This document shows, in pieces, positions 2,281 to 15,644 of a stretch of 64,000 bases of DNA. The notes beneath the pieces are model-generated. The model was given only the letters and a program-made list of their open reading frames with translations. It did no database searches and was not told the origin of the DNA. The stretch's first letter is position 1. Each line of letters opens with the position of its first letter. A program made the translations under genes and the position numbers. This stretch comes from Sandaracinus amylolyticus (GTDB lineage Bacteria > Myxococcota_A > Polyangia > Polyangiales > Sandaracinaceae), in assembly GCF_021631985.1 (NCBI RefSeq), contig NZ_CP070225.1:5952001-6016000 (forward strand), given 5' to 3'.

Positions 2281-2735
2281 CCTTCCAGCTCGCGGATCGC
2301 TGCGAGCAGGCTCGTCACGTCGACGCGATTGCGGTGATGCATCTTCGTCGTGTCTCGATTGGCCGCACGGATCTGATCGTCGGTCGCAGTCCAGATCTGA
2401 TCGAGGTGCAGGTGGAACGTGCCCAGCTGCCAGCGCTGCTCGCCGACCCGCCCCTCGGTCGGCACCGCGACACGACGCTCTCCGGGCGCGCTGAAGAGCG
2501 GCGCCCACTTCCCGATCCCGTTCCCGTGCTCGAGGCAGAGGAACGTGTGCGGCTGCCGCACGCGTCGGTGGTGCAGGGCCGTGTGGCTCGCACCGGCCCG
2601 CGCGAGCAGGTCGGGATCCAACACCAGCGCGAGCCCGGGCGAGAGCTCCTTCTTGCCGAGCGCGTCCAAGGGGCGCGAAGCCTTCGCGCGCGGCGCGAGA
2701 ACGTCAAGCGCGGCAGTCGTCGGGCCACGCGTCAC
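2265..2735 (-). CDS. Small hypothetical protein ending the exporter operon
   Basis: A 156-residue protein that I do not recognise. Its GTG start shares a GTGA overlap with the stop of the ABC protein at 2732-4855, so it is probably translated by coupling and belongs to the four-gene exporter operon. There is no signal peptide, transmembrane segment or Cys cluster. The N-terminal third is Ala/Leu-rich; the middle holds LEHGNGIGKW and the sequence continues with WQLGTFHLHLDQIW. Its stop overlaps the end of the convergent Nramp-like gene. A role as a soluble accessory factor for export or immunity is conceivable from position alone. Confidence 0.6.
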   Translation of the reverse strand: MTRGPTTAALDVLAPRAKASRPLDALGKKELSPGLALVLDPDLLARAGASHTALHHRRVRQPHTFLCLEHGNGIGKWAPLFSAPGERRVAVPTEGRVGEQRWQLGTFHLHLDQIWTATDDQIRAANRDTTKMHHRNRVDVTSLLAAIRELEGQTIS

Positions 2736-4855
2736 GGATGCGCGATCACCATCACGGCCGGAGCGCGCTCCAGCGTCGCGTGCACGCAGTGCTCGAGCGT
2801 CTCGGGATCCAGCGCGCCGAAGCTCTCGTCCAGCACCAGCACCCGCGCGCTCTGCGCCAGCAGCGCCCGCGCGAGGAACACGCGGCTGCGCTCACCGTGC
2901 GAGAGCTGCCAACCACTGTCGCCGACCTGCTGCATCAGACCGGCAGGCATCCGATCGATCAACGGCCCGAGCCCCAATGCGCGACAGACATCCTCCGCGC
3001 GCGCCAGATCTGCGTTGCTCGCCGGCCATCGATCACCGAGCAACAGGTTGAACCCCAGCGTGCCCGCGAAGACGTGGTTGTCGTGGAATTGCGGGACCAG
3101 CGCGATGCGCCTCCGCCACTCGTCCTCACCGAGCGTCTTCGTGTCGAGCCCTTGGCAGAGCACGAGGCCCGCGCTCGGCTCTCGCACTGCGGCCATCAGC
3201 TGCGCGAGCGTGCTCTTTCCGCCGCCCGAGGGCCCCACGCACAAGATCCGGTCCTTCGCGTCGATCCGCAGCGTCGCGTTCTTCAGCGCAGGCTCGAGCC
3301 GTCCCTCGTAGCGCAGCGTCGCGCCCCGTACTTCGAGCGTCGCGACGGTCGACTCGTCGGCGCCGTCGGGCCCGATCGCGAGCGAAGGATCTCCAGGGAT
3401 CGCGCGGGTCTCACCGGCGCGCAGCAGCACGGCGAGCCGATCGGCGCCGATCGCGGCGCGAGCGAGCTGCTCGACGCCGGTGCCCAGCGCAGCGAGCGCG
3501 CGTTGCGCGAGCAGCGCGCCGAACACCGCGGTCGCGAGCGACGTCTGGCTCGCACCGACGATGAACGGATGCGCGAGCGCGGCGACCGCGAGCACCAGAT
3601 ATGCGCGTGACAGCGCCCGCACCGGGAGCTCGGCGGCATCACTGCTGCGCGCGAGCGACGTCGCGGCGCCGAGCGCGACGTCCTCCTCTTCGTGCCAACG
3701 ATCGGAGGGCTCCTGTGCGAGGCGCGTGCGGTGCCCGACCATCCGCTCGACGAGGTCGTGCGTGAGACCGATGCGCGCATCGATCCACGCTCGTCGCCGC
3801 CGCATGAAGCGCGCGATCGCGGCCGCACCGATCACGAGCACCACCGCGAGCGCCACGAGCGTCGGATACGCGCCGCCGAGCGCGAGCACGACGGCAGCGA
3901 CCGAGAGCTCCACGAGCGCGAGCGCCGACGCGACACCACCGTCGAGCGCGAGCGACTCGACCGCCTCCGACTCGAGCACACGCGCGAGGAGCTGGCCGGC
4001 GCCCTCGCGCCGAATCGCGTCGCGATCGATGCGCAGCGCGCCCCACAGCAGACGCTGCTTCAAGACTCGCGCGGCGCGGATCGCGAAGCGACCCTGCGCC
4101 GTCGCCGCGAGCGCGCGCAACGGAACCCGCGAGAGCGCGAGCAGCGCCGCTGCGGCGAGCCACCCGGGATCGACCCGTCCACCGAGCACGCCGCTCCCGA
4201 GCGCGACCCACGCGAGCACGAGCGCGATCGACCCGAGCACGTGCGCGAGCAGCAGCGACACGAGCGGCGACGTCAGGCGCGCCTCGCGGACGAGCGTGCG
4301 CAGCGGTGCCGAGGGGTGCGGGCGGATCATGAACGCGCGGCGCACGTGCGCATGCGCGACGAGCTGATCACGGAGCGCGCGGCGTGCGCGCGACCCACTC
4401 CGCGCCTTCGCACCGGCCGACTCCAGCAGTCCATCGACGAGCTGATCGCCGAGCGCGTCGAATTCCCGCGCGACGTGCGCCCGCACTTCCTCGAGCGCGA
4501 ACGTGCTCGTCTCGTGATCGGGCAGGAGCACACGAAGCCGATCGCCCTCGCGTCCCACGACCGCGAGCCACCGATGCTCGTGCTCGTCGATCGACACGAT
4601 CGCGGGCGCCAGGCTCGCGAGCATCGTCGCGGTCTCCGGATAGCGCGAGTCGATCGACTCCGCATCGACGTGGAGCACGTCCGCGACACGCTCGATCCAC
4701 CGATCGATCGCCGGCCCGACGAGGCGCGCCCGCGCTGGCACCACGATCCCGTGAGGTACCGGATCGCCAGTAAAACCCGCACGGTTCGCGAGCGCGGCCA
4801 TCGCCTCGTGCACCCGCTCGATCGGCCACGACGCGCGCTCCAGCGCATCGCTCAC
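2732..4855 (-). CDS. ABC transporter permease-ATPase with degenerate N-terminal domain
   Basis: A 707-residue half-transporter. Residues 1-150 look like a C39-type domain without the catalytic Cys, residues about 195-450 form a membrane domain, and the rest is an ATPase domain. Walker A (GPSGGGKST, about 541), an LSHGE signature (about 651) and Walker B (RVLVLDESFGALD, about 671) are present. The protein stops two residues after starting the switch region (VMVIAHP), so the usual 30-50 residues after the switch His are missing. It overlaps the upstream exporter by ATGA and the downstream small gene by GTGA. It probably forms a heterodimer with the C39 exporter, acting mainly as the non-proteolytic partner. 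Confidence 0.8.
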   Translation of the reverse strand: MSDALERASWPIERVHEAMAALANRAGFTGDPVPHGIVVPARARLVGPAIDRWIERVADVLHVDAESIDSRYPETATMLASLAPAIVSIDEHEHRWLAVVGREGDRLRVLLPDHETSTFALEEVRAHVAREFDALGDQLVDGLLESAGAKARSGSRARRALRDQLVAHAHVRRAFMIRPHPSAPLRTLVREARLTSPLVSLLLAHVLGSIALVLAWVALGSGVLGGRVDPGWLAAAALLALSRVPLRALAATAQGRFAIRAARVLKQRLLWGALRIDRDAIRREGAGQLLARVLESEAVESLALDGGVASALALVELSVAAVVLALGGAYPTLVALAVVLVIGAAAIARFMRRRRAWIDARIGLTHDLVERMVGHRTRLAQEPSDRWHEEEDVALGAATSLARSSDAAELPVRALSRAYLVLAVAALAHPFIVGASQTSLATAVFGALLAQRALAALGTGVEQLARAAIGADRLAVLLRAGETRAIPGDPSLAIGPDGADESTVATLEVRGATLRYEGRLEPALKNATLRIDAKDRILCVGPSGGGKSTLAQLMAAVREPSAGLVLCQGLDTKTLGEDEWRRRIALVPQFHDNHVFAGTLGFNLLLGDRWPASNADLARAEDVCRALGLGPLIDRMPAGLMQQVGDSGWQLSHGERSRVFLARALLAQSARVLVLDESFGALDPETLEHCVHATLERAPAVMVIAHP

Positions 4856-7500
4856 GGCGCCGTCTCCTCACGCAGCTCGCCGCGCGAGACCCGGATCCGA
4901 CGAAAGACGTCCTCGCCCCAGAGCCGATCGGCGAGCGCGACGTCGGCGTCGAAGAGCGCGCGATATCGAGATCCCTCGACCGCGAGCAGCTCGGCCGGCG
5001 TCCCGTCCTCGATCACCTCTCCGTCCTCGATCACCAGCACGCGATCGAAGCTCGAGGTGTCGCGCACGTCGTGGGTCACCGCGAGCAACGTCGCGCTCCG
5101 GAAGATGCGCCGCGCGTTGTCGGTCAGCGCGCGCCGCGCTTCGCGGTCGAGCCCGCGGAACGGCTCGTCGAGGAGCGCGAGCCGCACGTTCGAGCGCAAG
5201 AATGCTCGCGCGGCGCGCACGCGTTGTCCCTCGCCGCCAGAGAGCAGCGCGCCGCCTTCCCCGAGCGCAGCCGCGAGCCCATCGGGCAGACGCTCGAGGA
5301 TCGGAAGGAGCTGCGCCTCGTCGAGCACGCTCCCCGGCGCGACCGCGGGGTCGTCCGCGCCGTAGCGGAGATTCGCGAGGAGCGATCGATTCCAGAGCTG
5401 CACCGCGGGGTCGATCCACGCGACCTCGCGGCGCAGGAGCGCGAGGCGCGTCGCATCGAGCGCGACGCCGTCGACACGCACTTCGCCGTGGATCGGACTG
5501 TAGAACCCGAGCAGCGTCGCGAGCAGCGAGCTCTTCCCCGCGCCCGACTGCCCGACGATCGCGACGTGCTGGCCCGGCGCGATCGCGAGATCGACCTCGT
5601 GCAGCACCCGATGGCCACCCGCGCGCACCTCGACGTGATCGAGCTCGATCGCGATCGGCCCTCGCGCCGAGCCGCTCGCGACGACCTCGGGCACGGGATC
5701 CTCGGGCGCCTCGAGGGGCTCGAGCAACCGCAAGAACGTGCCGCGCACGTGAGGATAGAGACGCGCCGAGAGCGCCACTTGCTCTCCGAACGTCGGAATC
5801 GCGAGCGCCCAGTACGCGACGAGCAGCGAGCCCCCGAGCGAGCCTCCGCGCGCGAGATATCCGCCGATCAGCACGATCGCGAGCGCCGCGCCCGAGAGCG
5901 CGACGATTGTCTCGACGCGCACTGCCGCGCTCAGCATCGAGCGCGCCGATCGCTGCCACTCGACGAGCAGGCTCTCGTGCTCTCGACGCACCGCGCGCTC
6001 GGCGGAGTGCGCGCGCACGGCGGTGATCCCGAGCAATGCGTCGAGGTAGTAACGCGCGATCGCGCCGAGGTGCGTCTGCACGCGGAGCTCGCGCTCCGAG
6101 AGCACCGGCACGAACACGAGAGGAAGGACGATCGCGAGCACGGCCGATCCGATCGCGATCGGTGCGCCCGCCGGATCGATCCACACCAGGCCGATCACGG
6201 TCGCGATCAGTCCGAAGAACGCCGCGAGCAGCGAGGTGCCGAGCCGCGGGAGCGCCTGGAGCGACGAGAGCGAGTGGCTCCGCTGGGCCATGTCCGATGT
6301 GAGCCGGCTCTGGAAGAAACGATCGGGGAGGCGCGGGATCTTCGTCTGCAGCGCGACACGAAGCCGCGCTTCGAGTCGTCGGCCGAGCGTCTGCACCATC
6401 GCGGTCTGCGGCAGCTCGAGCGCCATCGTGGTCGCGAGGAGGCCGATCGTCGCGAGCACCGCGCCGATGCGCTGCTCACGCAGCGGAAGCATCGCCCCGA
6501 GATCGAGCAGACCTCGCAGCAGCAACGCTTCCACGAGCGCTCCGAGCGCCGCCATCGCGATCGCGATCGTGCACGCCATCGGCGCGACGACTCCGTCCTT
6601 CGCCAGCACGCGGACGAGCTCTCGGAGCGCGTTCGGACGTGCCTCGTCGAGCGCGCGACGCAGGACCTCGGACTCCGCCGCGGCCGGCGCCTCGAGCTCG
6701 TCCTTCCGCGCCGCGCCGAGCATGCCCTTCGCGCGCAGCACGACCGCCCCCCGCATGATCACGTGCGGCTCGTCGCTCTCGTCGTCGGGCGCGGGATACG
6801 CGGTCCACATCCGCTCGGGGATGACGGTCGGATCCTCCGCAGCACGACGGGCGAGCGCGGCGACGATTCCCGACGCCGATCCGCGCTCGAGCTCTCCCGC
6901 GGTCGCGAGCGCCGTCGCGACACGCACGGCGGCATCGAGCGCGGCGATGCCCCACGGCCCGGGATCGGCCGAGGCCGTCGCCCACAGCGCGGCCCGCTCC
7001 GCGCTCGCGATGCCGATCGACTCCATCCGTCGATCGAGCACGACCGACATCTCTCTCGAGCCTGCGTACTCGCGGAACGCAGCCGCGGGAACCGGCATCC
7101 GATGCTGGAAGAGATCGCGCTGGAGCAGCGTGACCGTCGTCCAGCGGCGTCCGGTCGCGGGATCCATCACCTGCACGAAGGGCCCGTGACGGCGATAGAT
7201 CACGACGAAGTGGGTGAACCCACTCGGGAGCCGCACGATCACGATCGCGGGCAGCGACGCGCTCTCCGGCACGAGCACGTGATCGTAAGGAACGAGCAAT
7301 TGCTCGGCGTCGAGCCCGAGCGCGCGCGCGACCTCCTCGAGCGTGTCGATCGACGTGCCGTCGACGTCGGTGTGACAGGCCTCGCGCAGTCGCCCGTAGC
7401 CCACGTGCACGCCGAAGCCTTCGAGCAGGCACTTCAGGGCCGCAGGACCGCAGTCCATCGACGACGTCTGCACGACCTCGGGCGCGAGCCACCGCATCAT
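4852..7500 (-). CDS. C39 peptidase-containing ABC exporter (bacteriocin/RiPP type)
   Basis: An 882-residue exporter with all three modules. The N-terminal C39 peptidase has Gln11, Cys17 in QTSSMDCGPAAL, His97 in GFTHFVVIY and Asp113 in VMDPATG, so its catalytic set is complete. A membrane domain follows, after a long insert around residues 150-310, and then an ATPase domain with Walker A GQSGAGKSS (about 650), LLSGGEGQ (about 752), Walker B LALLDEP (about 774) and switch His (about 810). C39 exporters cut leader peptides, usually after a Gly-Gly-like pair, and pump the core out. It lies between the HlyD adaptor and the second ABC gene, each joined by 4-nt overlaps, and faces the RiPP genes. 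Confidence 0.9.
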   Translation of the reverse strand: MMRWLAPEVVQTSSMDCGPAALKCLLEGFGVHVGYGRLREACHTDVDGTSIDTLEEVARALGLDAEQLLVPYDHVLVPESASLPAIVIVRLPSGFTHFVVIYRRHGPFVQVMDPATGRRWTTVTLLQRDLFQHRMPVPAAAFREYAGSREMSVVLDRRMESIGIASAERAALWATASADPGPWGIAALDAAVRVATALATAGELERGSASGIVAALARRAAEDPTVIPERMWTAYPAPDDESDEPHVIMRGAVVLRAKGMLGAARKDELEAPAAAESEVLRRALDEARPNALRELVRVLAKDGVVAPMACTIAIAMAALGALVEALLLRGLLDLGAMLPLREQRIGAVLATIGLLATTMALELPQTAMVQTLGRRLEARLRVALQTKIPRLPDRFFQSRLTSDMAQRSHSLSSLQALPRLGTSLLAAFFGLIATVIGLVWIDPAGAPIAIGSAVLAIVLPLVFVPVLSERELRVQTHLGAIARYYLDALLGITAVRAHSAERAVRREHESLLVEWQRSARSMLSAAVRVETIVALSGAALAIVLIGGYLARGGSLGGSLLVAYWALAIPTFGEQVALSARLYPHVRGTFLRLLEPLEAPEDPVPEVVASGSARGPIAIELDHVEVRAGGHRVLHEVDLAIAPGQHVAIVGQSGAGKSSLLATLLGFYSPIHGEVRVDGVALDATRLALLRREVAWIDPAVQLWNRSLLANLRYGADDPAVAPGSVLDEAQLLPILERLPDGLAAALGEGGALLSGGEGQRVRAARAFLRSNVRLALLDEPFRGLDREARRALTDNARRIFRSATLLAVTHDVRDTSSFDRVLVIEDGEVIEDGTPAELLAVEGSRYRALFDADVALADRLWGEDVFRRIRVSRGELREETAP

Positions 7501-8726
7501 CGCGCGCCCTCTCCCATCGATCCGTAGACGTCTCCGTCGAGCGCCTGGCCGACCGCGCGCAACACGAGCTCGAGCGGGCTCACGCGCTCGACGGCCACTT
7601 CGACGCTGCCCTCGAGACCGTGGGTGATCGGGATGCAGCTCGGTGCGCGCTGCACGTCGAGCTCGACGCGCACGAGCCCTTCACGCGGCTCGTTGCCCAC
7701 GCGCGCGACGACGAGCTCGATCATCCCGAATCGCGTCCACGGAAACGCATTCATGCGCATCTGCGCGCGCTGTCCTGGTGAGACCCGACCGAGCGCGCTG
7801 CCCGCCGCGAAGTGGCCCACGACGCGCAGCGGACCGTCGGGGACCAGCGCCACCAGACGCTGGCCTTCGGTGACGACCGAGCCCGGCCTCAGCTCCGAGA
7901 GCTCGCCGACCGTCCCCGCGACCGGCGCGACGATGCGGCGTCGCGCGAGCTCGACCTCCAGCCGCTGGATCTGCGCTTCTTCCGCCGCGTGCTCTCCCCG
8001 CAGGCGCACTCGCTCGCGTCGCAGGCTCTCGAGACGAACGACCGCGTCCGCCGCGCGCGTGCGCGCGTCCGCGGCGATTCGCTGCGTCGCGTGCGCAGCC
8101 GCGAGCGCTTGGGACGCGTGCACCTCCGCCTCCACCACGGCACGCGCGAGATCGCGCTCGGAGGTCGCGCCCGCAGATCCGAGACGTGCGATGCGCGCCT
8201 GCTCCACGCGCGCCCACCGCGCCTCGGCGTCCGCGCGCTCGCGCTCGGCGTCGGCCTCGGCCACCGCACCGCGCGAGCCACGGCCGATCGCGTCGACGAG
8301 CCCTCGCGCCGCGTCGATCTCCTCGTCGATCGCGGCGAGCTGGGCCGCGAGCGCGTCGCGCATGGCGACCGACTCACGCTGCGCGGCGAGGATCTCCGCC
8401 GACTCGAGCTCGATCAGGACGTCGCCCGCGACGACTCGCTGACCGAGCTCCACGTGGACGGCGAGAACGCGCTCCGTCAGCGGAGCGCCGACGACGTGCG
8501 CCGCGGCAGTCGACTCGATCCGCGAGTCCGTCGAGACGTCCCAGAGCGTCACTCGCGCGAGGTGGGCCCAGGCGGCCCAGACCGCGATCACGAGGCCGAT
8601 TCCCAGGACGATCAGCGAAGCTCCGCGCGCGTGCTCACCCTCGAGAGAGCGAATCGATCGAGAGAAGTGTGTCGCCAATCGCGCCCGCCCCGGACTGAGT
8701 CGCAACCATAGCATCGCGCCCCGCAT
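7497..8726 (-). CDS. HlyD-family periplasmic adaptor of the exporter
   Basis: A membrane-fusion protein of about 409 residues. I place the start at ATG 8726; ATG 8714 is an alternative, and a longer in-frame extension to 8831 looks unlikely. One membrane helix (about ILVLGIGLVIAVWAAW-type sequence near residue 40) is followed by a lipoyl-like half motif (VLAVHVELGQRVVAGDVLIEL), a long Ala/Arg/Glu-rich coiled-coil hairpin, and the second half (IVAPVAGTVGELSELRPGSVV). HlyD adaptors link an inner-membrane ABC exporter to an outer-membrane channel. The gene opens the operon, and its stop overlaps the start of the C39 exporter by 4 nt. No outer-membrane channel gene is visible in the window. Confidence 0.85.
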   Translation of the reverse strand: MRGAMLWLRLSPGRARLATHFSRSIRSLEGEHARGASLIVLGIGLVIAVWAAWAHLARVTLWDVSTDSRIESTAAAHVVGAPLTERVLAVHVELGQRVVAGDVLIELESAEILAAQRESVAMRDALAAQLAAIDEEIDAARGLVDAIGRGSRGAVAEADAERERADAEARWARVEQARIARLGSAGATSERDLARAVVEAEVHASQALAAAHATQRIAADARTRAADAVVRLESLRRERVRLRGEHAAEEAQIQRLEVELARRRIVAPVAGTVGELSELRPGSVVTEGQRLVALVPDGPLRVVGHFAAGSALGRVSPGQRAQMRMNAFPWTRFGMIELVVARVGNEPREGLVRVELDVQRAPSCIPITHGLEGSVEVAVERVSPLELVLRAVGQALDGDVYGSMGEGAR

Positions 8727-9203
8727 TGCCAGTCCCACTCTGCTCGTTTCGCACGACCGACTGCCGAAGGACCATTTCACCGCAATCCACCAGACCAGCC
8801 GCTCCGACAACCACGTACCAAGAGTACGCACTCAGTCCGTTCACAAGTGGCGCCCTATCGGAACCGCATGCCTGCGGGAAGCGATTCATCGTGCCCGGAG
8901 TAGGGAGATCGAATGAACGAGGGCGCGCCGGCGACACAGGGGCTCTCGCCGGGGGCCACGATCGCCGCGAGTCGCCAACCGGCGACGACGTGGCTGCAGC
9001 GCATTGCGCGCATCGCGGAGACACGCGAAAAGCGCGTCAGTCGCAGACGCTCCAGGCGAGCTGTAAATCTGATCTCGACTCTCCCTTTCCGAGCGCGACG
9101 ACCTGAATTGTCGATTGACGACGTCGAGAACCGATTTCAATGTGGACTCGTGACATCGGATAGGCCGCTGTCACCTGAGCAGTAAGAAAGAACGAGAAAG
9201 ACG
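8727..9203. other. Divergent intergenic region between exporter and RiPP operons
   Basis: This 477-bp stretch separates two operons that point away from each other, so it must hold promoters in both directions. Base composition is less GC-rich near 9070-9150 than in the flanking genes. A 90-codon frame at 8913-9185 (+) follows a decent GGGAG ribosome site but has an unconvincing Arg-rich translation and no recognisable family, so I do not call it a gene. Confidence 0.5.
9115..9143 (+). promoter_or_regulatory. Candidate promoter of the RiPP operon
   Basis: TTGACG at 9115-9120 matches a -35 box well. After a 17-bp spacer, CAATGT at 9138-9143 is a weak -10 match. The position, about 60 bp before the precursor start, is right. 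The weak -10 box makes this tentative. Confidence 0.3.
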
Positions 9204-9284
9204 ATGAACAGCAAGAAGGCGAAGAAGCTCGTGGTCAAGACCGGTCTCCGCGCGGGCGTCGCCCGTCCGATCGTCGTCTGCTGA
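9204..9284 (+). CDS. RiPP precursor peptide with C-terminal Cys
   Basis: A 26-codon gene from ATG 9204 to TGA 9282-9284, preceded by a purine-rich tract (GAACGAGAAAGACG) that can act as ribosome site. The peptide begins MNSKKAKKL, passes through the hydrophobic stretch LVVKTGLRAG and ends ARPIVVC. Its single Cys is the very last residue. The Lys-rich start and LVVKTG strand look like a leader for RRE-type recognition, and the C-terminal Cys is the substrate type of TglHI-like MNIO enzymes. It sits directly before the MNIO gene with a hairpin between, the usual place for a precursor. There is no Gly-Gly pair; the only AG is in LRAG. Size and position give the call, not homology. Confidence 0.75.
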   Translation: MNSKKAKKLVVKTGLRAGVARPIVVC

Positions 9285-9290
9285 GTTGAT

Positions 9291-9329
9291 GCGGGCAACG
9301 GAGTGCACCCGTTGCCCGCACTCTCTTTT
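9291..9329 (+). terminator. Hairpin after the precursor gene, probable attenuator
   Basis: Arms GCGGGCAACGG (9291-9301) and CCGTTGCCCGC (9309-9319) pair perfectly over 11 bp around a 7-nt loop, and a pyrimidine run ending TTTT follows. It begins 7 nt after the precursor stop and precedes the MNIO ribosome site. A leaky terminator here would let the precursor be made in excess over the enzymes. Confidence 0.8.
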
Positions 9330-9377
9330 CTCCGACGTCGGGTGCGAGAAGGCGCAGCGGAGCGGAAGGCAGAGCGA

Positions 9378-10352
9378 GTGGTCACGAACGCGACAATCTC
9401 CGACTCCTCCATTCCGCAGCTCGGTGTCGGGCTCCAGTTCAATCCCGAGATCTACGACTGGTTTCCGTTCGCGCGGCATCAGGTCGACGCGTACGAGGTC
9501 CTGCTCGACGCGGTCATGGCCCCTCTCGATGGGCGAGTCGTCATGGTTCCCGGAGGCGCCGAACAGCTCGAGTCGCTGGCGAAGCTCGCGCCGCTGGTCG
9601 CGCACTCGAACTATGGATGTGATTTCGGCTTCGACCCGCTCGAGGAGACTCCGGCGGTTCGCCGGCACGTCCCGATCGCGCGCCGAATCGCGAGCCCGTG
9701 GGTGTCCAATCACTGCTTCTATGCCGACGGCTCGTGGTCGGACATCTGGAGCAGTCCGCTCCAATTCTCGCGAGCGGAAGTGGAACGAGTCGGGCGTCGC
9801 GCGCGGGCGCTGAGCGAGCTCTACGGAACCCCGCTCGCACACGAAAATGCCGCGTACTACGTCGCTTGCCCGGGCAGCGAGATGCGCGAGGCCGAGTTCC
9901 TCGCGGCGCTGGTCGATCGCGCGGGAACGCACCTTCACCTCGATCTCCACAACGTCTACACGAACTCCGTCAATCATCCGGGGTTCGACGCGTGGGAATA
10001 TCTCGCGACGATTCCGCTCGATCGCGTCATCGCCATTCACCTGGCGGGCGGCAGCTACCACGACGGCGTCTATCACGACTGGCACGACAGCCCGGTGCCC
10101 GAGCCCGTATGGGAGATGCTCCAGCACGTGCTCGAGCACACCCGCGTCGGCGCGGTGTTCCTCGAGTTCCAGGGTCGTGGCCACCACGACGCGACGAGAG
10201 TGCTCGACCGCGAGCGCGACCTCGACATGATCCTCGCCGACCTCGCGCGCGCACGGCGCACGTGGGACGCGGCGTACGGGCAGCGCAGCCGTCGAACGAC
10301 GCGCAGTGGAGCGCAACCGATCGAAGCACGAGAGGTCTGCGGTGGACGCTGA
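9378..10352 (+). CDS. MNIO (DUF692) multinuclear iron oxidase
   Basis: A protein of about 324 residues in a TIM-barrel family (DUF692) that uses two or three iron atoms to oxidise Cys, Asp or other residues in RiPP precursors (MbnB, TglH and BufB are members). Family landmarks are LGVGLQFNPEI near the start, HENAAYY (about 155), THLHLDLHNVYTN (about 184-196), IAIHLAGG (about 221) and VFLEFQGRGHH (about 263); the His, Asp, Asn and Glu residues there are the expected metal ligands. I chose GTG 9378 because GGAAGG lies ahead of it, whereas the earlier in-frame GTG 9303 lies inside the hairpin. It is the catalytic centre of the proposed RiPP pathway. Confidence 0.9.
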   Translation: MVTNATISDSSIPQLGVGLQFNPEIYDWFPFARHQVDAYEVLLDAVMAPLDGRVVMVPGGAEQLESLAKLAPLVAHSNYGCDFGFDPLEETPAVRRHVPIARRIASPWVSNHCFYADGSWSDIWSSPLQFSRAEVERVGRRARALSELYGTPLAHENAAYYVACPGSEMREAEFLAALVDRAGTHLHLDLHNVYTNSVNHPGFDAWEYLATIPLDRVIAIHLAGGSYHDGVYHDWHDSPVPEPVWEMLQHVLEHTRVGAVFLEFQGRGHHDATRVLDRERDLDMILADLARARRTWDAAYGQRSRRTTRSGAQPIEAREVCGGR

Positions 10353-11166
10353 GCTCGTCTGGCGGACCTGGCGGCGAATCCTGCGCGAGCCGGTGCTCCA
10401 AGAGAGTCTGTTCTCGGGCGCGTTCGACGCAGGCGCCCACGGCCTCTCGGACGCCGAGGCACGGATCGCCGCCGAGTATGCGGCCCATCGAACGATGACG
10501 CGCTGGGCCGTCGAGACCTATCAGTTCCGTCTGGAGCGCGGAGCGCTGTTCGCCTGGGGCACGGGCGCGCCGCTCACGCTGCGCCTCCTCGAGTCGGCGA
10601 GAGTCGACACGCGCGAGGTCGCGCGGCGATATCTGCGCTCGGTCGGTCATCGGGACGATGGTCCCTACGTCTATCGATCGTGCGCGGCCCTGCTCGGATA
10701 TCTTCGGGGCGCGGAGCTGAGCGCCCGGCCGATCGAGCTCGACGACACCATCGCCCTCGAGAGCGCCGTCGTCTCGCTGATCCGAGACCTCGCAGACGCA
10801 CCGGAGTCGTTGTGGGCCGACGACGCGGAGACGCGCTCGGGCGTGCGCTACGTGCAGTCGGGCACCGGTCGCGTCGTCTCGACGTCTCACGCGATCGCGG
10901 CTTGGCTCGCCGAGCCCGAGCTCGTCGCGGCCGACAGCGCAGAGCGAGAGCCCGAGCACTTCCTCGTCTACGTGCCGTCGCTCGAGAGCGACTACGACAT
11001 CGCCGAGCTCTCGGGCGCCGCGAAGCGGCTGTTCGACGCGTTCGCACAGCCTCGCTCGTACGACGAGGCGAGGTCGTCGCTGCCGGCCGATGACGACGAC
11101 GAATACGATTCGGCGCTCGAGACGTTCCTGACCCTCGGCGTCGTCCGCGCGGAGGCGATGACATGA
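10342..11166 (+). CDS. MNIO partner protein with RRE-like C-terminus
   Basis: A soluble protein of about 274 residues. GTG 10342 has GAGAGG six bases upstream and overlaps the MNIO gene by 11 bp; GTG 10306 is in frame but has no ribosome site. The first 130 residues are helical and Arg-rich. The last 65 (DIAELSGAAKRLFDAFAQP onward) have the pattern of a PqqD-like winged helix, the peptide-binding RRE fold. MNIO enzymes normally work with such a partner (MbnC, TglI), which binds the precursor leader. I recognise it from position and this C-terminal pattern rather than from close sequence similarity. It overlaps the cupin gene by 4 nt. Confidence 0.65.
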   Translation: MDAELVWRTWRRILREPVLQESLFSGAFDAGAHGLSDAEARIAAEYAAHRTMTRWAVETYQFRLERGALFAWGTGAPLTLRLLESARVDTREVARRYLRSVGHRDDGPYVYRSCAALLGYLRGAELSARPIELDDTIALESAVVSLIRDLADAPESLWADDAETRSGVRYVQSGTGRVVSTSHAIAAWLAEPELVAADSAEREPEHFLVYVPSLESDYDIAELSGAAKRLFDAFAQPRSYDEARSSLPADDDDEYDSALETFLTLGVVRAEAMT

Positions 11167-11492
11167 AGATCGAGTCGGTCCCGTTCACCACCACGGACCT
11201 GCGCACGATCGCGCCGACGGTCCACGCGGGACTCCGCGGAGAGGCGATCTGGCGCACGTTCGAGATGGGAAACGTCCGCGTGCGGCGCGTCGAGTACACG
11301 CCCGGCTACGAAGCGGACCACTGGTGCGAACGGGGCCACGTGCTGCACGTGCTCGAAGGCACGCTCGTCACGCACTTGGCCGACGGCCGCGTGATCACGC
11401 TGACCGAGGGGATGACCTACGTCGTCGCGGAAGGCGCGGAGCCGCATCGTTCGTGCGCACCGAGCGGCGCCACCCTCTTCGTCGTGGACTAG
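11163..11492 (+). CDS. DHCW-motif cupin
   Basis: A 109-residue single-domain cupin. The segment ADHWCERGHVLHVLEG (about residues 50-65) is the defining motif of the DHCW cupins, and RVRRVEYTPGYEADHW and GMTYVVAEGAEPHRS also match that family. Cupins of this kind have His and Cys residues that could bind a metal; no reaction is firmly established for the group. It starts inside the stop of the partner gene (ATGA) and ends 2 bp before the chorismate mutase. In this operon it might protect or deliver metal or modify the peptide, which is inference from context. Confidence 0.8.
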   Translation: MKIESVPFTTTDLRTIAPTVHAGLRGEAIWRTFEMGNVRVRRVEYTPGYEADHWCERGHVLHVLEGTLVTHLADGRVITLTEGMTYVVAEGAEPHRSCAPSGATLFVVD

Positions 11493-11494
11493 AG

Positions 11495-11794
11495 ATGAGC
11501 ACGGACTCGCTCGCCGAGCTGAGGCGACGGATCGACGAGGCCGATCTGGCGCTCCTCGAAGCGCTCGCTGCGCGGCGACGCGCCGTCCTGGCAATTGCCG
11601 ACGTCAAACGACGGCATGGAATCGCCGTGATCCAGCCCGATCGATTTCTCGCGCTCGTCAATGATCGAATCGCGACCGGACTGAGCCTCGGTCTGTCACC
11701 TGCGTTCGTGCAGACGCTCTTCGAGCGGATCCACGAGCAGGCGATCGCAGATCAGCTCGGTGTGGTGTGCAGTGAGGAGAGAGCTTCGAAATGA
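11495..11794 (+). CDS. AroQ-type chorismate mutase
   Basis: A 99-residue all-helical protein of the monofunctional AroQ family, which rearranges chorismate to prephenate. Expected active-site positions are present: Arg10 in LRRRID, Arg27 in AARRRAVL, Lys38 in ADVKRRHG, Asp49 and Arg50 in QPDRF, and Glu/Gln in ERIHEQAI. The related PchB fold (isochorismate pyruvate lyase) cannot be fully excluded. No other aromatic amino acid gene is near, so a housekeeping role is unlikely. It overlaps the next gene, a carboxy-SAM synthase homologue that consumes prephenate, by 4 nt (ATGA), which suggests that it supplies that enzyme. Confidence 0.85.
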   Translation: MSTDSLAELRRRIDEADLALLEALAARRRAVLAIADVKRRHGIAVIQPDRFLALVNDRIATGLSLGLSPAFVQTLFERIHEQAIADQLGVVCSEERASK

Positions 11795-12552
11795 CCCATC
11801 GACTCGTCGCAGAGCCGACACCGCACGAGCCGGGCACCACCGCGACCACGGTCGGCGACGGAATCGCCGCGGCCAATGCGTCGTGGACGTTCGGGGCCGA
11901 CGTGCCCAAGACGTTCAGCGCGCACGTCCGGCGCTCGGTCCCGCTCTACGACGTGGGGCACGACCTCGTCTGTCAGCTGAGCGACTTCTTCGTTCGCAAC
12001 GAGTCCGTCTGCTACGAGATCGGTGTCTCGGCGGGTGACCTCACGGCGAAGCTCGCGCGGCACAACCGGGCCAAGGATGCGCGCTGGGTCGGCATCGACA
12101 TCGAGCCCGGGATGATCGAGAAGGCGCGCGAGAACCTGGCCGGCGTTCCCAACGTCTCGCTGCACGTCGCCGATGCGGTGCATTACGACTTCGAGAAGTC
12201 CGACTTCATCGTCTCGTATTATTCGCTGCAATTCGTGCCGCCCAAATGGCGCCAGGAAATGCTGACGAAGCTCTACGACTCGCTCAACTGGGGCGGCGCG
12301 CTGGTGTTGTTCGAGAAGGTGCGCGCCTGTGACGCGCGCTTCCAGGACATCGCGACCACGCTCTACACCGAGTTCAAGATCCGCCAGCAGTTCGCGCCGG
12401 ACGAGATCGTCGCGAAGACGCGCAGTCTGAAGGGCGTGCTCGAGCCCTTCTCCACGCAGGGCAACCTCGACCTGCTGCGGCGCGCGGGTTTCACCGACGT
12501 GATGTCGATCATGAAGTACGTCTGCTTCGAAGGCTTCGTGGCGATCAAATGA
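11791..12552 (+). CDS. CmoA-type carboxy-S-adenosylmethionine synthase
   Basis: A 253-residue class I methyltransferase-fold protein that resembles CmoA along its length. Shared features are SWTFGADV (about 31-38) with RRSVPLY (47-53), the SAM loop EIGVSAGDLT, the acidic VGIDIEPGMIEKAR, YYSLQFVPP, LNWGGALVLFEK and the closing CFEGFVAIK. CmoA converts SAM plus prephenate to carboxy-SAM and phenylpyruvate; its carboxylate-binding Arg199 corresponds to Arg211 here, in KTRSLKGVL. A housekeeping CmoA would accompany CmoB and tRNA modification; here it lies between a chorismate mutase and another methyltransferase, with 4-nt overlaps on both sides. That points to carboxy-SAM for peptide tailoring. 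Confidence 0.85.
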   Translation: MTHRLVAEPTPHEPGTTATTVGDGIAAANASWTFGADVPKTFSAHVRRSVPLYDVGHDLVCQLSDFFVRNESVCYEIGVSAGDLTAKLARHNRAKDARWVGIDIEPGMIEKARENLAGVPNVSLHVADAVHYDFEKSDFIVSYYSLQFVPPKWRQEMLTKLYDSLNWGGALVLFEKVRACDARFQDIATTLYTEFKIRQQFAPDEIVAKTRSLKGVLEPFSTQGNLDLLRRAGFTDVMSIMKYVCFEGFVAIK

Positions 12553-13412
12553 GCGACGGCGCGATCGTCTACGGCACTCGTGAGCACTGGGATCGTGTCG
12601 CGGGGGTGCGCGGCGTGGCGTCGACCGACGTCAGCGTGGCTCTGGGGTCGTCGATGCTCGAGGGTCGTTCGCTCGGCCGACGCCGGGTCCTCGACGTCGG
12701 CACCGGCAACGGGAATCTGCCCATTCGCGCGGCGCTCGCAGGCGCCCAGGCGCTCGGCATCGACATCACGGAGCCGGGAGTGCGGCTCGCGGCGGCGAAC
12801 GCCGACAGCAAGCTCGAGGACCCCGACGTGCGCGCGCGCGTCTCGTTCCGCGCGATGGATGCTTCGGCCCTCGATCTGCCCGATCGCTCCGTCGATCTGA
12901 TCACGGTGCTCAAGACGATCTGGTGTCTGCCCGACATCCCCGCTGCGTGTCGCGAGCTGCGGCGTGTGCTCGCGCCGGGGGGCGACCTCGTCATCCAGCT
13001 CTGGGGCTCCGCGGACGACTGCAGTCTGCTCATGGTCGGTGCGTCACTGCTCGCCGAGTACGTGACCGGGATGCACATGCCGGCGGGCTATCGCGGCCCG
13101 TTCGGCGTCACGCCGCGGTACATGCGTGGAGTCCTGACGCGCGCAGGATTCACGCGCTTCTCGGTCCGCCGGCACTCGTTCGAGGCCGAATTCAGCTCGC
13201 CCGACGAGTACTGGACGCTCGTGCGATCGCTCGCGGGCAGTGCGTATTACGCGCTCACGCTGCTCGGCCCCGAGCAACGCAGTGAGCTCGATGCGCGCCT
13301 CTGGGAAGCGCTCGAGCCGGTGCGCGAGGGCGACCACGCGTCGCTCGATCTCGAGTGGCTCGTGCTGACGACTGGATACGACGAGAAGCTCCGCCTCGTG
13401 GACGAGCGCTGA
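12549..13412 (+). CDS. Class I methyltransferase, predicted carboxymethyltransferase
   Basis: A 287-residue SAM-dependent enzyme of the UbiE type. Motif I is VLDVGTGNGNLP (about 47-58), the acidic loop ALGIDITEPG follows, then FRAMDASALDLPDRSVDLITVLK and the post motif LRRVLAPGGDLVIQLWG. Its start overlaps the stop of the carboxy-SAM synthase by ATGA, so the two are probably made in equal amounts. By analogy with the tgl pathway, where a methyltransferase homologue uses carboxy-SAM on a peptide thiol, I infer transfer of a carboxymethyl group to the modified C-terminal Cys. Ordinary methylation remains possible. It is the last gene of the RiPP operon. Confidence 0.75.
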   Translation: MSDGAIVYGTREHWDRVAGVRGVASTDVSVALGSSMLEGRSLGRRRVLDVGTGNGNLPIRAALAGAQALGIDITEPGVRLAAANADSKLEDPDVRARVSFRAMDASALDLPDRSVDLITVLKTIWCLPDIPAACRELRRVLAPGGDLVIQLWGSADDCSLLMVGASLLAEYVTGMHMPAGYRGPFGVTPRYMRGVLTRAGFTRFSVRRHSFEAEFSSPDEYWTLVRSLAGSAYYALTLLGPEQRSELDARLWEALEPVREGDHASLDLEWLVLTTGYDEKLRLVDER

Positions 13413-13426
13413 AGTCGCCTCCTCGC

Positions 13427-13478
13427 TGACGTCCGTCGCTGACAGGTGTCATTGACACTCGTCACTGACATCCGCCAG
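13427..13478 (+). repeat. Four tandem 13-bp operator-like repeats before tetR
   Basis: TGAC recurs at 13427, 13440, 13453 and 13466, exactly 13 bp apart. The units read TGACGTCCGTCGC, TGACAGGTGTCAT, TGACACTCGTCAC and TGACATCCGCCAG. The second contains the perfect inverted repeat TGACA-GG-TGTCA, and GTGTCA-T-TGACAC (13446-13458) spans the second and third. The array ends 24 bp before the TetR start and probably serves as its autoregulatory operator. Confidence 0.65.
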
Positions 13479-13502
13479 TGTGCGCGTCGGGGGCGGACGA
13501 AC

Positions 13503-14156
13503 GTGTCGACGCGCGAGCTGCAGCGGCTCCAGACGCGACAGCGCATCTACGAGCACGCGATCGCGATCTTCCGGCGCGACGGCGTCGCGCCGTGCCGCAC
13601 CGACGACATCGCGAAGGCCGCAGGGGTCAGCCGCGGCGCGTTCTACTTCCACTTCCCGACGAAGGAGCACGTGCTCCTCGAGCGGATGCGCGAGACCGAG
13701 TCGCTGATCTGCGACGCGATCGACGTGCTCCCCGCGGACACACCCGTGGTGCAGGTGCTGGGGACACTGCACGAGGCGCTGGGGCGGATCTGGGAGCCCG
13801 ATCCGCAGCTCCTTCCCGACGTGGTCGCGGTCGCGCTGCGCTTCACCGCGACGACGATGTCGGATCAGCAGGCGACCGCGCTCCGATCGACCGTCGCAGC
13901 GCGCTTTCGCGCCGCGGCCGAGCGCGGAGAGCTCTCGGGTCGGCTCCCGCCCGAGACGCTCGGCGACCTCTACCTCGGGCACATGCTCGCGGGACTGCTC
14001 GCTTGGTACGCGAGCCCGGTGCTCCCGGTGCGCAGCGTGCTCGACGCGGTCACCGACCTCTTCTGGAACGGCGCGCGCGCACCGACCTCGGCCGCGCCTC
14101 CGCGCGCGACGAAGACGAACGCGAAGAAGAAGAAGAAGAAGGAGCGAAGACGATGA
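13503..14156 (+). CDS. TetR-family transcriptional regulator
   Basis: A 217-residue regulator with start GTG 13503, preceded by GGGGGCGGA; an earlier frame-open GTG at 13446 lies inside the operator repeats and is rejected. The N-terminal helix-turn-helix is typical (TDDIAKAAGVSRGAFYFHFPTKEHV-like, broken here at about residues 35-60). The remainder is a ligand-binding helical domain with ALRFTATTMSDQ. The C-terminus is a Lys/Arg tail (KKKKKKERRR) encoded by a GAA/AAG microsatellite that also acts as a purine-rich leader for the next gene. It overlaps the P450 gene by ATGA, so it probably controls itself and the P450 through the 13-bp repeats. Confidence 0.9.
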   Translation: MSTRELQRLQTRQRIYEHAIAIFRRDGVAPCRTDDIAKAAGVSRGAFYFHFPTKEHVLLERMRETESLICDAIDVLPADTPVVQVLGTLHEALGRIWEPDPQLLPDVVAVALRFTATTMSDQQATALRSTVAARFRAAAERGELSGRLPPETLGDLYLGHMLAGLLAWYASPVLPVRSVLDAVTDLFWNGARAPTSAAPPRATKTNAKKKKKKERRR

Positions 14157-15544
14157 CTCGAACGCTCGTCGGATCCCGTGCAGCGACCGCGCGGCGCGAG
14201 CCTCCGCGCGTCTCGCGCTGGAGCAGCATCCCCGAGCTGCCGTGGGCGGGCAGCGCGCTCGCGTTCACACGCCGTCCGATCACGTTCCTCGAGCGCGCGC
14301 ACGCCGAGTGCGCATCGGACATCGTGCGCTTCGGCTATTTCGGCAAGACGCTCTATTCGGTGCGCGGCCGCGAGGCGACCGAGCTCTTCTTCGACAGTGT
14401 GAACCTCGACCTCAAAGGCGGCTTCGTCGAGATCTTCGGAGGCCTGCTCCCCAAACGCTTCCTCGGCGAAGAGGACGACGATCTCTACGCGTTCAGCAAG
14501 AAGCGCTCGGTGTTCAACTTCGGCGCGTACCTCGACGCAGTGCACGTGAGCACCGACGAGGTCCTGCGCGAGCTCGGCAAGAGCGGCGAGATCGATCTCT
14601 TCGAGCTCTCTTCGCAGCTCTCGTTCCGCGCGGCCTCGCGCTTCATGCTGGGCGAGACGATCGCGTCGCCCGGGTTCTTCGCGCGGTGGCGCGAGCTCTT
14701 CTTCGCGACGAATCCGGTCGAGTCGCTCGGTCGGTTCCAGTGGAACCTCGTCAATCCGCTGTTCTGGCGAAAACAGAACGAGCTCTTCGCCGAGCTCGAG
14801 GCGCTGCTCGCGCGGCTCATCGACGCGAAGGACCCGGTGCCGCCCGGCGAGGAGCGGAGCTTCCTCGAGCTCGCGCTCAATACCGTCTATGCGCGCAAGT
14901 CGCGCGAGCAGGCGGTGGCGCACGTCTACATGATGTTCCTCGCCGCGTATCTGAATCCGACGCTCACGCTGGGATGGACGCTCGTCGATCTGCTGCGTCG
15001 TGATCGCGAGAACCCCCACCGCTTCTCGGTGCAGGACGAGCTGCGCCGCGCGCATGCACGCCATCCCGACGGTCCTCTGCCGCGCGCTGCGCTCGACGAG
15101 CTCTCGATCCTGCAACTCTGCGTGATGGAGACGTTGCGACTGCGCATCCGCGCGGTGAACGTGCGCAAGATCGTGAACGAGCCATTCGTGTTCCGCGGCT
15201 GCGAGATCCCGGTGGGCGCGCTCGTCTGCAACTCACCGACGTTCGCGCATCTCGATCCCGAGAGCTACGACGCGCCGCTCGAGCATCGCCCCGAGCGCTG
15301 GCTCGGCACCCCGGAGCTCGAGCGCGCGACGATGACCGCGCGATACATGCCGTTCGGGACGTTCGCGCACATCTGCCCGGGCAAGAAGCTGAGCCACGTC
15401 TGGCTCAAGGTCGCGATCAGCGAGCTGTTCCGGCGCTTCGACGTCGAGATCGCGGGCTCGATCCCGAACGTGCGCGAGGGGATCATGCCGGTGCTCGCCG
15501 ATCGCGACGGGCCGTGCATCGCGCGATATCGACGACGCGCCTGA
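14153..15544 (+). CDS. Cytochrome P450, atypical
   Basis: A 463-residue P450. The K-helix ExxR is METLRLR, the PERW motif is EHRPERWLG, and the haem-Cys loop is MPFGTFAHICPGKKLS, with Cys in the expected place but Phe where the family usually has Gly. The I-helix reads FLAAYLNPTLTLGW and lacks the usual AGxxT oxygen-activation residues. P450s without that Thr are often peroxide isomerases (CYP74, prostacyclin synthase) rather than oxygenases, so a non-oxygenase reaction is possible. No redox partner is nearby. It is coupled to the TetR gene by a 4-nt overlap. Whether it acts on the RiPP or on an unrelated lipid is unknown. Confidence 0.85.
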   Translation: MTRTLVGSRAATARREPPRVSRWSSIPELPWAGSALAFTRRPITFLERAHAECASDIVRFGYFGKTLYSVRGREATELFFDSVNLDLKGGFVEIFGGLLPKRFLGEEDDDLYAFSKKRSVFNFGAYLDAVHVSTDEVLRELGKSGEIDLFELSSQLSFRAASRFMLGETIASPGFFARWRELFFATNPVESLGRFQWNLVNPLFWRKQNELFAELEALLARLIDAKDPVPPGEERSFLELALNTVYARKSREQAVAHVYMMFLAAYLNPTLTLGWTLVDLLRRDRENPHRFSVQDELRRAHARHPDGPLPRAALDELSILQLCVMETLRLRIRAVNVRKIVNEPFVFRGCEIPVGALVCNSPTFAHLDPESYDAPLEHRPERWLGTPELERATMTARYMPFGTFAHICPGKKLSHVWLKVAISELFRRFDVEIAGSIPNVREGIMPVLADRDGPCIARYRRRA

Positions 15545-15644
15545 GTCAGATTCGTTGCCCCGCTCGCGTCCCCTGATAAAGACGGGACCGCGCTCGCATG
15601 GGAGTCGTCCATCGTGGACGGAATGCGGCGCGGAGGAGGCGCAG

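Follow-up and report, generated by a model that had tools for sequence, protein, structure and literature searches.

A 64,000-nucleotide stretch of the Sandaracinus amylolyticus genome (NZ_CP070225.1, positions 5,952,001 to 6,016,000; here called the window) carries, at positions 9204 to 13412, an operon for a ribosomally synthesized and post-translationally modified peptide (RiPP) built around an MNIO, a multinuclear nonheme iron-dependent oxidative enzyme. We consider it fairly likely, judging from gene content and homology, that this is a relative of the tgl and tmo clusters without a PEARL (peptide aminoacyl-tRNA ligase) and that it makes an exported short peptide ending in 3-thiaglutamate. 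In the proposed pathway, the ribosome would supply a 26-residue precursor with its C-terminal Cys already in place. The TglI-type partner would bind the leader, and the TglH-type MNIO would excise the beta carbon of the Cys as formate, so that the precursor would now end in 2-mercaptoglycine (-14 Da). The AroQ-type protein would convert chorismate to prephenate, from which the TglE-type CmoA would make carboxy-SAM by using S-adenosylmethionine (SAM), and the last methyltransferase would place the carboxymethyl group on the new thiol (+58 Da) to give a C-terminal 3-thiaglutamate residue. Finally, the C39-ABC transporter would remove the leader, perhaps after Ala17-Gly18, and the HlyD and two ABC proteins would export VARPIVV-3-thiaGlu. 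The features concerned are as follows.

9204..9284, plus strand: precursor peptide gene; translation of 26 aa, MNSKKAKKLVVKTGLRAGVARPIVVC, with a C-terminal Cys
9290..9329, plus strand: hairpin between the precursor and MNIO genes, 12 bp plus a T-rich tail
9378..10352, plus strand: MNIO, TglH-type (PF05114, 150.9 bits; match to the TglH structure chain)
10342..11166, plus strand: TglI-type partner with a RiPP recognition element (RRE) (NF058584; TglI structure chain)
11163..11492, plus strand: DHCW-motif cupin (NF038084)
11495..11794, plus strand: AroQ-fold chorismate mutase-like protein (PF01817 CM_2, 59.3 bits; cutoff, 27)
11791..12552, plus strand: CmoA/TglE-clade protein, putative carboxy-SAM synthase (TIGR00740)
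12549..13412, plus strand: class I methyltransferase, putative S-carboxymethyl transferase (fold, Lys122, structural neighbors)
7497..8831, minus strand: HlyD-like adaptor of the exporter (PF16576/PF13437; 83% identical and syntenic in the second species)
4852..7500, minus strand: C39 peptidase-ABC transporter (PF03412, 4e-19; nearest equivalog, NHLM ABC1; 89% identical in the second species)
2732..4855, minus strand: second ABC transporter of the exporter (PF00005; 89% identical over 707 aa and syntenic in the second species)

The second species is another member of the genus (genome G178). An initial annotation of the window had named seven genes (precursor, MNIO, partner, cupin, AroQ-like, CmoA-like, and methyltransferase) together with a C39 exporter. 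All seven are present and tightly packed: from the MNIO onward, four of the five junctions overlap, and the cupin/AroQ gap is 2 nt. The exporter was also found, and it consists of three genes (2732 to 8831), encoding HlyD, C39-ABC, and the second ABC protein, which lie divergently from the operon and are conserved together with it. By direct reading, the C39 domain retains the QTSSMDCGPA cysteine motif plus a later His and Asp. A short precursor, an MNIO with an RRE partner, and a peptidase-exporter thus form a conserved block, as in C39-processed RiPPs, in which cleavage is predicted.

Excision of the beta carbon from the encoded C-terminal Cys is the best-supported step of the pathway and appears highly probable because of the homology to TglH and TglI, the conserved residues, and the TmoHI precedent on an encoded Cys. 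The MNIO scored 409 bits against the solved TglH chain, with about 59% identity, far exceeding its scores to the MNIO_BufB, HvfB, ApyH, and ChrH models. It keeps all nine TglH iron ligands (His71, His107, Glu151, Asp184, Asn187, His216, Asp229, His231, and Glu258, in TglH numbering), and the catalytic Asn73 is likewise identical, for a total of 10 out of 10 residues compared (positions from PMC10880893). The gene adjoining that of the MNIO encodes a TglI-type partner, which matched the TglI structure chain with 132 bits (E = 2.2e-37) and the NF058584 TglI model with 137.1 bits, below the equivalog cutoff of 450. TglHI acts on a C-terminal Cys, which it requires, and releases the beta carbon as formate (PMC9016710, PMC10880893). 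In Escherichia coli, TmoHI performs this excision on a C-terminal Cys that is encoded by the gene (PMC9303977), and a PEARL is therefore dispensable for the excision chemistry. The precursor of the window ends in an encoded Cys, the substrate residue expected by TglHI-type enzymes, and the enzyme pair proposed in the initial annotation is well supported by these matches.

In the pathways to known 3-thia-amino acids, a PEARL first attaches Cys to a carrier, and the products are then released as free, unstable amino acids. Searches with three PEARLs (tblastn) found none in the window or in the G178 locus, as had been noted for the window, and extended the absence to the whole of both genomes; three control genomes were positive in the same search. 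The absence is based on this search with its positive controls, which replaced a PF04738 scan in which no control gave a signal. TglF had no match in the window or the G178 locus and no orthologue in either genome; the sole hit was at 23% identity (E = 3e-4), elsewhere in the S. amylolyticus genome. A search for a TglG-type membrane protease, covering the window and the G178 locus, gave no match in either, and 18 of the 31 TglH-type loci surveyed below have one. Carriers at PEARL loci terminate in FDLDDIEVIESKVFA, and no carrier of this TglA type was found here, the precursor being unrelated. Because both the PEARL and the carrier tests fail, the cluster, as judged by its gene content, is not a pearlin.

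The lack of PEARL, TglF, TglG, and a TglA-type carrier could also indicate a decayed or recombined pearlin operon, in which the short open reading frame would not be the substrate and the real substrate would lie elsewhere. This is very unlikely indeed, since all genes are open, with 75 to 95% protein identity in G178, the precursor is perfectly conserved, and a compensatory change is found in the hairpin just after it. The entire operon and exporter block is syntenic in G178, in the same order, as anticipated for a conserved gene set. Protein identities were 83 to 89% for the exporter, 88% for the MNIO, 75% for the partner, 95% for the cupin, 80% for the AroQ-like protein, 92% for CmoA, and 88% for the methyltransferase. 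With every gene syntenic and the precursor identical at 81 of 81 nucleotides, the gene grouping is beyond chance. The flanking genes compared are absent from the G178 locus, which places the block borders at about 2732 and 13412. For this reason, the TetR gene (13446 to 14156) and the P450 gene (to 15544) were excluded as cluster members, the P450 query having been read in one frame only. Adjoining this pair, at 15555 to 18482, is a gene whose large product, a putative surface protein, has five CarboxypepD_reg repeats and an end resembling a dockerin. The partner gene was sought in 379 genomes drawn from the phylum and in 10 from the family, and S. amylolyticus and G178 alone were positive.

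The precursor gene is single copy in both genomes, and its 81 identical nucleotides fall within a run of 91 identical consecutive bases (window 9194 to 9284 versus the G178 locus, L007), whereas neighboring genes differ at about one-third of four-fold sites. Such identity is unlikely to have arisen by chance (p about 3e-4 by codons and 8e-3 by four-fold sites), because in the rest of the operon identical residues share a codon only 73% of the time. Gene conversion, RNA-level constraint, or codon selection may be the cause. The hairpin that follows folds at -27 kcal/mol (z = -5.8) in S. amylolyticus and at -28.9 kcal/mol (z = -6.9) in G178, and in the latter copy one pair shows a compensatory A-U to G-C change. 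The hairpin is probably a partial terminator that would allow excess production of the precursor. The MNIO frame can be extended upstream to a GTG at 9303. However, GTG 9378 is probably the start, because position 9303 falls inside the hairpin and G178 is not conserved there. In the precursor, residues 1 to 18 probably form the leader and VARPIVVC the core, with a predicted C39 cut after Ala17-Gly18. The leader motif KKLVVK is similar to the VKKLSVK of Cys-rich precursors of TglH-type clusters, a short match that suggests a perhaps meaningful likeness.

The next steps require carboxy-SAM and a transferase. As claimed initially, a CmoA homologue is present, and the genome has no other CmoA orthologue, its next match being at 26% identity (E = 5.6e-4); carboxy-SAM, if made, would therefore serve this pathway. 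The protein scores 135.8 bits against TIGR00740, under the equivalog cutoff of 193.3, and is 53 to 71% identical to the CmoAs of TglH-type clusters, including that of P. cerasi, compared to 28 to 30% for E. coli and Haemophilus influenzae CmoA. On-site supply of carboxy-SAM had been presented as a novelty relative to tgl, and this does not hold: tgl carries its own synthase, TglE, reported to make carboxy-SAM, along with the transferase TglF (PMC10491745), and a CmoA from this clade is present at 27 of the 31 surveyed loci.

Prephenate is the co-substrate of CmoA, and the AroQ-type gene stands directly before cmoA, so that prephenate supply is the simplest reading of its function. The protein keeps five of eight E. 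coli mutase residues (Arg11, Arg28, Lys39, Arg51, and Gln88). As to the dedicated prephenate source of the initial annotation, the on-site AroQ-type gene is real and new, but with three residues replaced, its product is only a putative mutase.

The final enzyme has a class I methyltransferase fold and is not TglF/CmoB-like. Since TglF is absent, it is the sole transferase candidate, and we infer that it uses carboxy-SAM for S-carboxymethyl transfer. In class I methyltransferases, strand 4 ends close to the donor methyl; the sequence at this end is VLKTIW in the window and in G178 compared to LLSAWW, LLSSWW, and CLASMW in three relatives. This puts Lys122 two residues past strand 4 (residues 115 to 120 in the predicted model), where the relatives have Ser or Ala; the model has a mean pLDDT of 69.5 and no ligand, and the position of Lys122 was assigned solely from secondary structure and motif. 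CmoX contacts the carboxymethyl group through an Arg in its active site, and an engineered M.MpeI N374K accepts carboxy-SAM (PMC12783734). By analogy, Lys122 is predicted to be the switch that enables carboxy-SAM use.

Several observations weigh against the proposed pathway. First, the relatives of the last methyltransferase, at three actinobacterial loci, occur with a PEARL and a TglG-like protease and without CmoA or TglF, and they probably S-methylate, fitting a TmoS-type activity; the Lys contrast is between two close sequences and three. Excision might then be followed by simple S-methylation with SAM, as by TmoS, giving S-methyl mercaptoglycine, with carboxy-SAM either used by an unlinked enzyme or not used. 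The structural neighbors of the enzyme include the S-methyltransferases TmtA and GtmA, as well as the RiPP enzyme LahSB, and the first two are consistent with this alternative. We nevertheless regard it as unlikely, since it would give the cotranscribed CmoA and AroQ-type genes no function when the operon has no TglF-like gene and the genome no TglF orthologue, and since Lys122 departs from the relatives at the donor end. For the second methyltransferase of the initial annotation, then, the gene is there, but it is not TglF/CmoB-like, its relatives lie in clusters lacking CmoA, and its carboxymethyl transfer is a prediction.

Second, E. coli CmoA binds the carboxylate through Arg199 (PMC4482062), and the CmoA-like protein of the window has Thr at that position. 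Across the TglE clade the residue is Thr, Ala, or Ser, with a conserved SLK after it, and the carboxylate must be held differently. Third, the AroQ-type protein has Asp48 replaced by Gln, Glu52 by Phe, and Ser84 by Ala; PchB, which is a lyase and the best solved-structure match, differs at the same three positions, and S. amylolyticus has two other chorismate mutase domains. The protein could accordingly be an isochorismate-pyruvate lyase or have another chorismate-derived activity, with an aryl acid being attached or used and CmoA drawing prephenate from primary metabolism. This seems quite unlikely, because no isochorismate synthase or aryl-acid enzyme was found among the Pfam hits of the flanking genes scanned, the gene overlaps cmoA, whose product takes prephenate as co-substrate, and the five mutase residues listed above are kept. 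Finally, the exact gene set was seen in only two genomes of a single genus. Set against these points, the proposal of a 3-thiaglutamate-like peptide is well supported as to excision by a TglHI-type pair; carboxymethylation by the last methyltransferase and the part played by prephenate are predicted. Whether all parts hold at once, i.e., an encoded, exported peptide ending in 3-thiaglutamate (S-carboxymethyl mercaptoglycine), with its own prephenate source and synthase and a transferase evolved from a thiol methyltransferase via an active-site lysine, could in our judgment go either way.

The wider distribution of these genes was surveyed by scanning 84,980 species genomes with an MNIO alignment; the partner of the window, used as the sole query against genome contigs, gave no matches. 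The scan yielded 31 further TglH-type loci. TglI was found in all 31, a CmoA of the same clade in 27, PEARL in 18, TglG in 18, TglF in 17, a radical SAM enzyme in 12, the DHCW cupin in 9, and a relative of the last methyltransferase in 3; none had an AroQ-type gene. The cupin of the window itself is well identified, at 150.8 bits against the NF038084 DHCW profile (cutoff, 70). A neighborhood of MNIO, CmoA, and AroQ had been proposed as a check: the pair of MNIO and CmoA is widespread, but the full trio was encountered in this genus alone. An MNIO tree rooted with outgroups showed three lineages, one PEARL-bearing, one Cys-rich with radical SAM enzymes, and one comprising the window and G178, with no resolved branching order among them. 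In the P. cerasi locus, the MNIO is nearly identical to TglH, making it in effect a tgl cluster. Since a CmoA homologue is encoded beside most of the TglH-type MNIOs, carboxy-SAM probably finds common use as a reagent across this branch of RiPP biosynthesis. Nothing was found on an MNIO with carboxy-SAM or with chorismate mutase in the open-access literature, which does not cover most subscription papers.

Other loci of the survey differ in composition. At L008 (10844 to 17345), L017, L024, L028, L031, and L033 to L040, TglH and TglI occur without PEARL and with a radical SAM enzyme and CmoA; the precursors contain many internal KCAA, RCAA, or HCAA repeats, and no published description of them was found. 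Their makeup suggests TglHI-type chemistry on internal cysteines. Clusters in Actinokineospora and Streptomyces (L029, L030, and L043, about 10001 to 15920) have PEARL, TglH, TglI, a TglG-like protease, and one methyltransferase, with no CmoA or TglF, and their product is probably S-methyl mercaptoglycine. L020 (9995 to 11757) has only TglH and TglI; the stretch retrieved contains no gene for CmoA, PEARL, TglF, or a radical SAM enzyme. The clusters at L035 and L037 are nearly identical yet binned as Xanthobacteraceae and Binataceae in the same metagenome project, which is probably due to misbinning. Plasmid CmoA homologues beside DNA cytosine methyltransferases in Paenibacillus, Aneurinibacillus, and Thermobispora (L009, 8001 to 8735; L010, 8001 to 8675; L012, 8001 to 8690) have a CmoA/CmoX-like layout and have also lost Arg199. 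They were set aside as relatives, being 32 to 38% identical and in a DNA-modification context.

Among known systems, the operon resembles tgl, the 3-thiaglutamate pearlin of Pseudomonas syringae, with which it shares the TglH-type MNIO, the TglI partner, the TglE-clade synthase, and the C-terminal Cys substrate, and it would function in the same way up to carboxymethylation. Unlike in tgl, the Cys is ribosomally encoded, there is no PEARL (TglB), TglF, or TglA-type carrier, and the transferase is of another family; an AroQ-type gene, a cupin, and a C39/HlyD exporter are added, and the expected product is a peptide rather than a free amino acid. The encoded Cys, AroQ-type gene, exporter, and different transferase are what is new here. 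The tmo system (3-thiahomoleucine, Tistrella mobilis), for which the plasmid collection yielded no genes, likewise has MNIO/partner excision followed by a thiol-acting methyltransferase (TmoS, likened by described function), but it relies on SAM and includes both a PEARL and a B12 radical SAM enzyme, whereas here CmoA would supply carboxy-SAM. The Cys-rich clusters of Burkholderia, Bradyrhizobium, and Sphingomonas resemble the operon in TglH/TglI, TglE-clade CmoA, often a DHCW cupin, the lack of PEARL, and a KKLxVK-like leader; they differ in their internal K/R/H-C-A-A repeats, radical SAM enzyme, other methyltransferase domain, and separate MNIO clade. CmoA/CmoX phage DNA carboxymethylation and MccS/MccB of microcin C also pair a CmoA homologue with a non-CmoB-like carboxymethyl transferase, but the acceptor there is DNA cytosine or a nucleotide-bearing peptide and not a peptide thiol.

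To our knowledge, thiaglutamate-type chemistry has hitherto been seen only on a separately attached Cys. If the reading proposed here is true, the same chemistry would take place on a peptide's own last residue, which would allow the export of a peptide that terminates in a glutamate-like thiahemiaminal. This makes several questions testable: whether TglHI acts on native encoded substrates, whether one lysine is enough to convert an S-methyltransferase to carboxymethyl transfer, and whether carboxy-SAM synthesis is fed by a chorismate mutase of its own.

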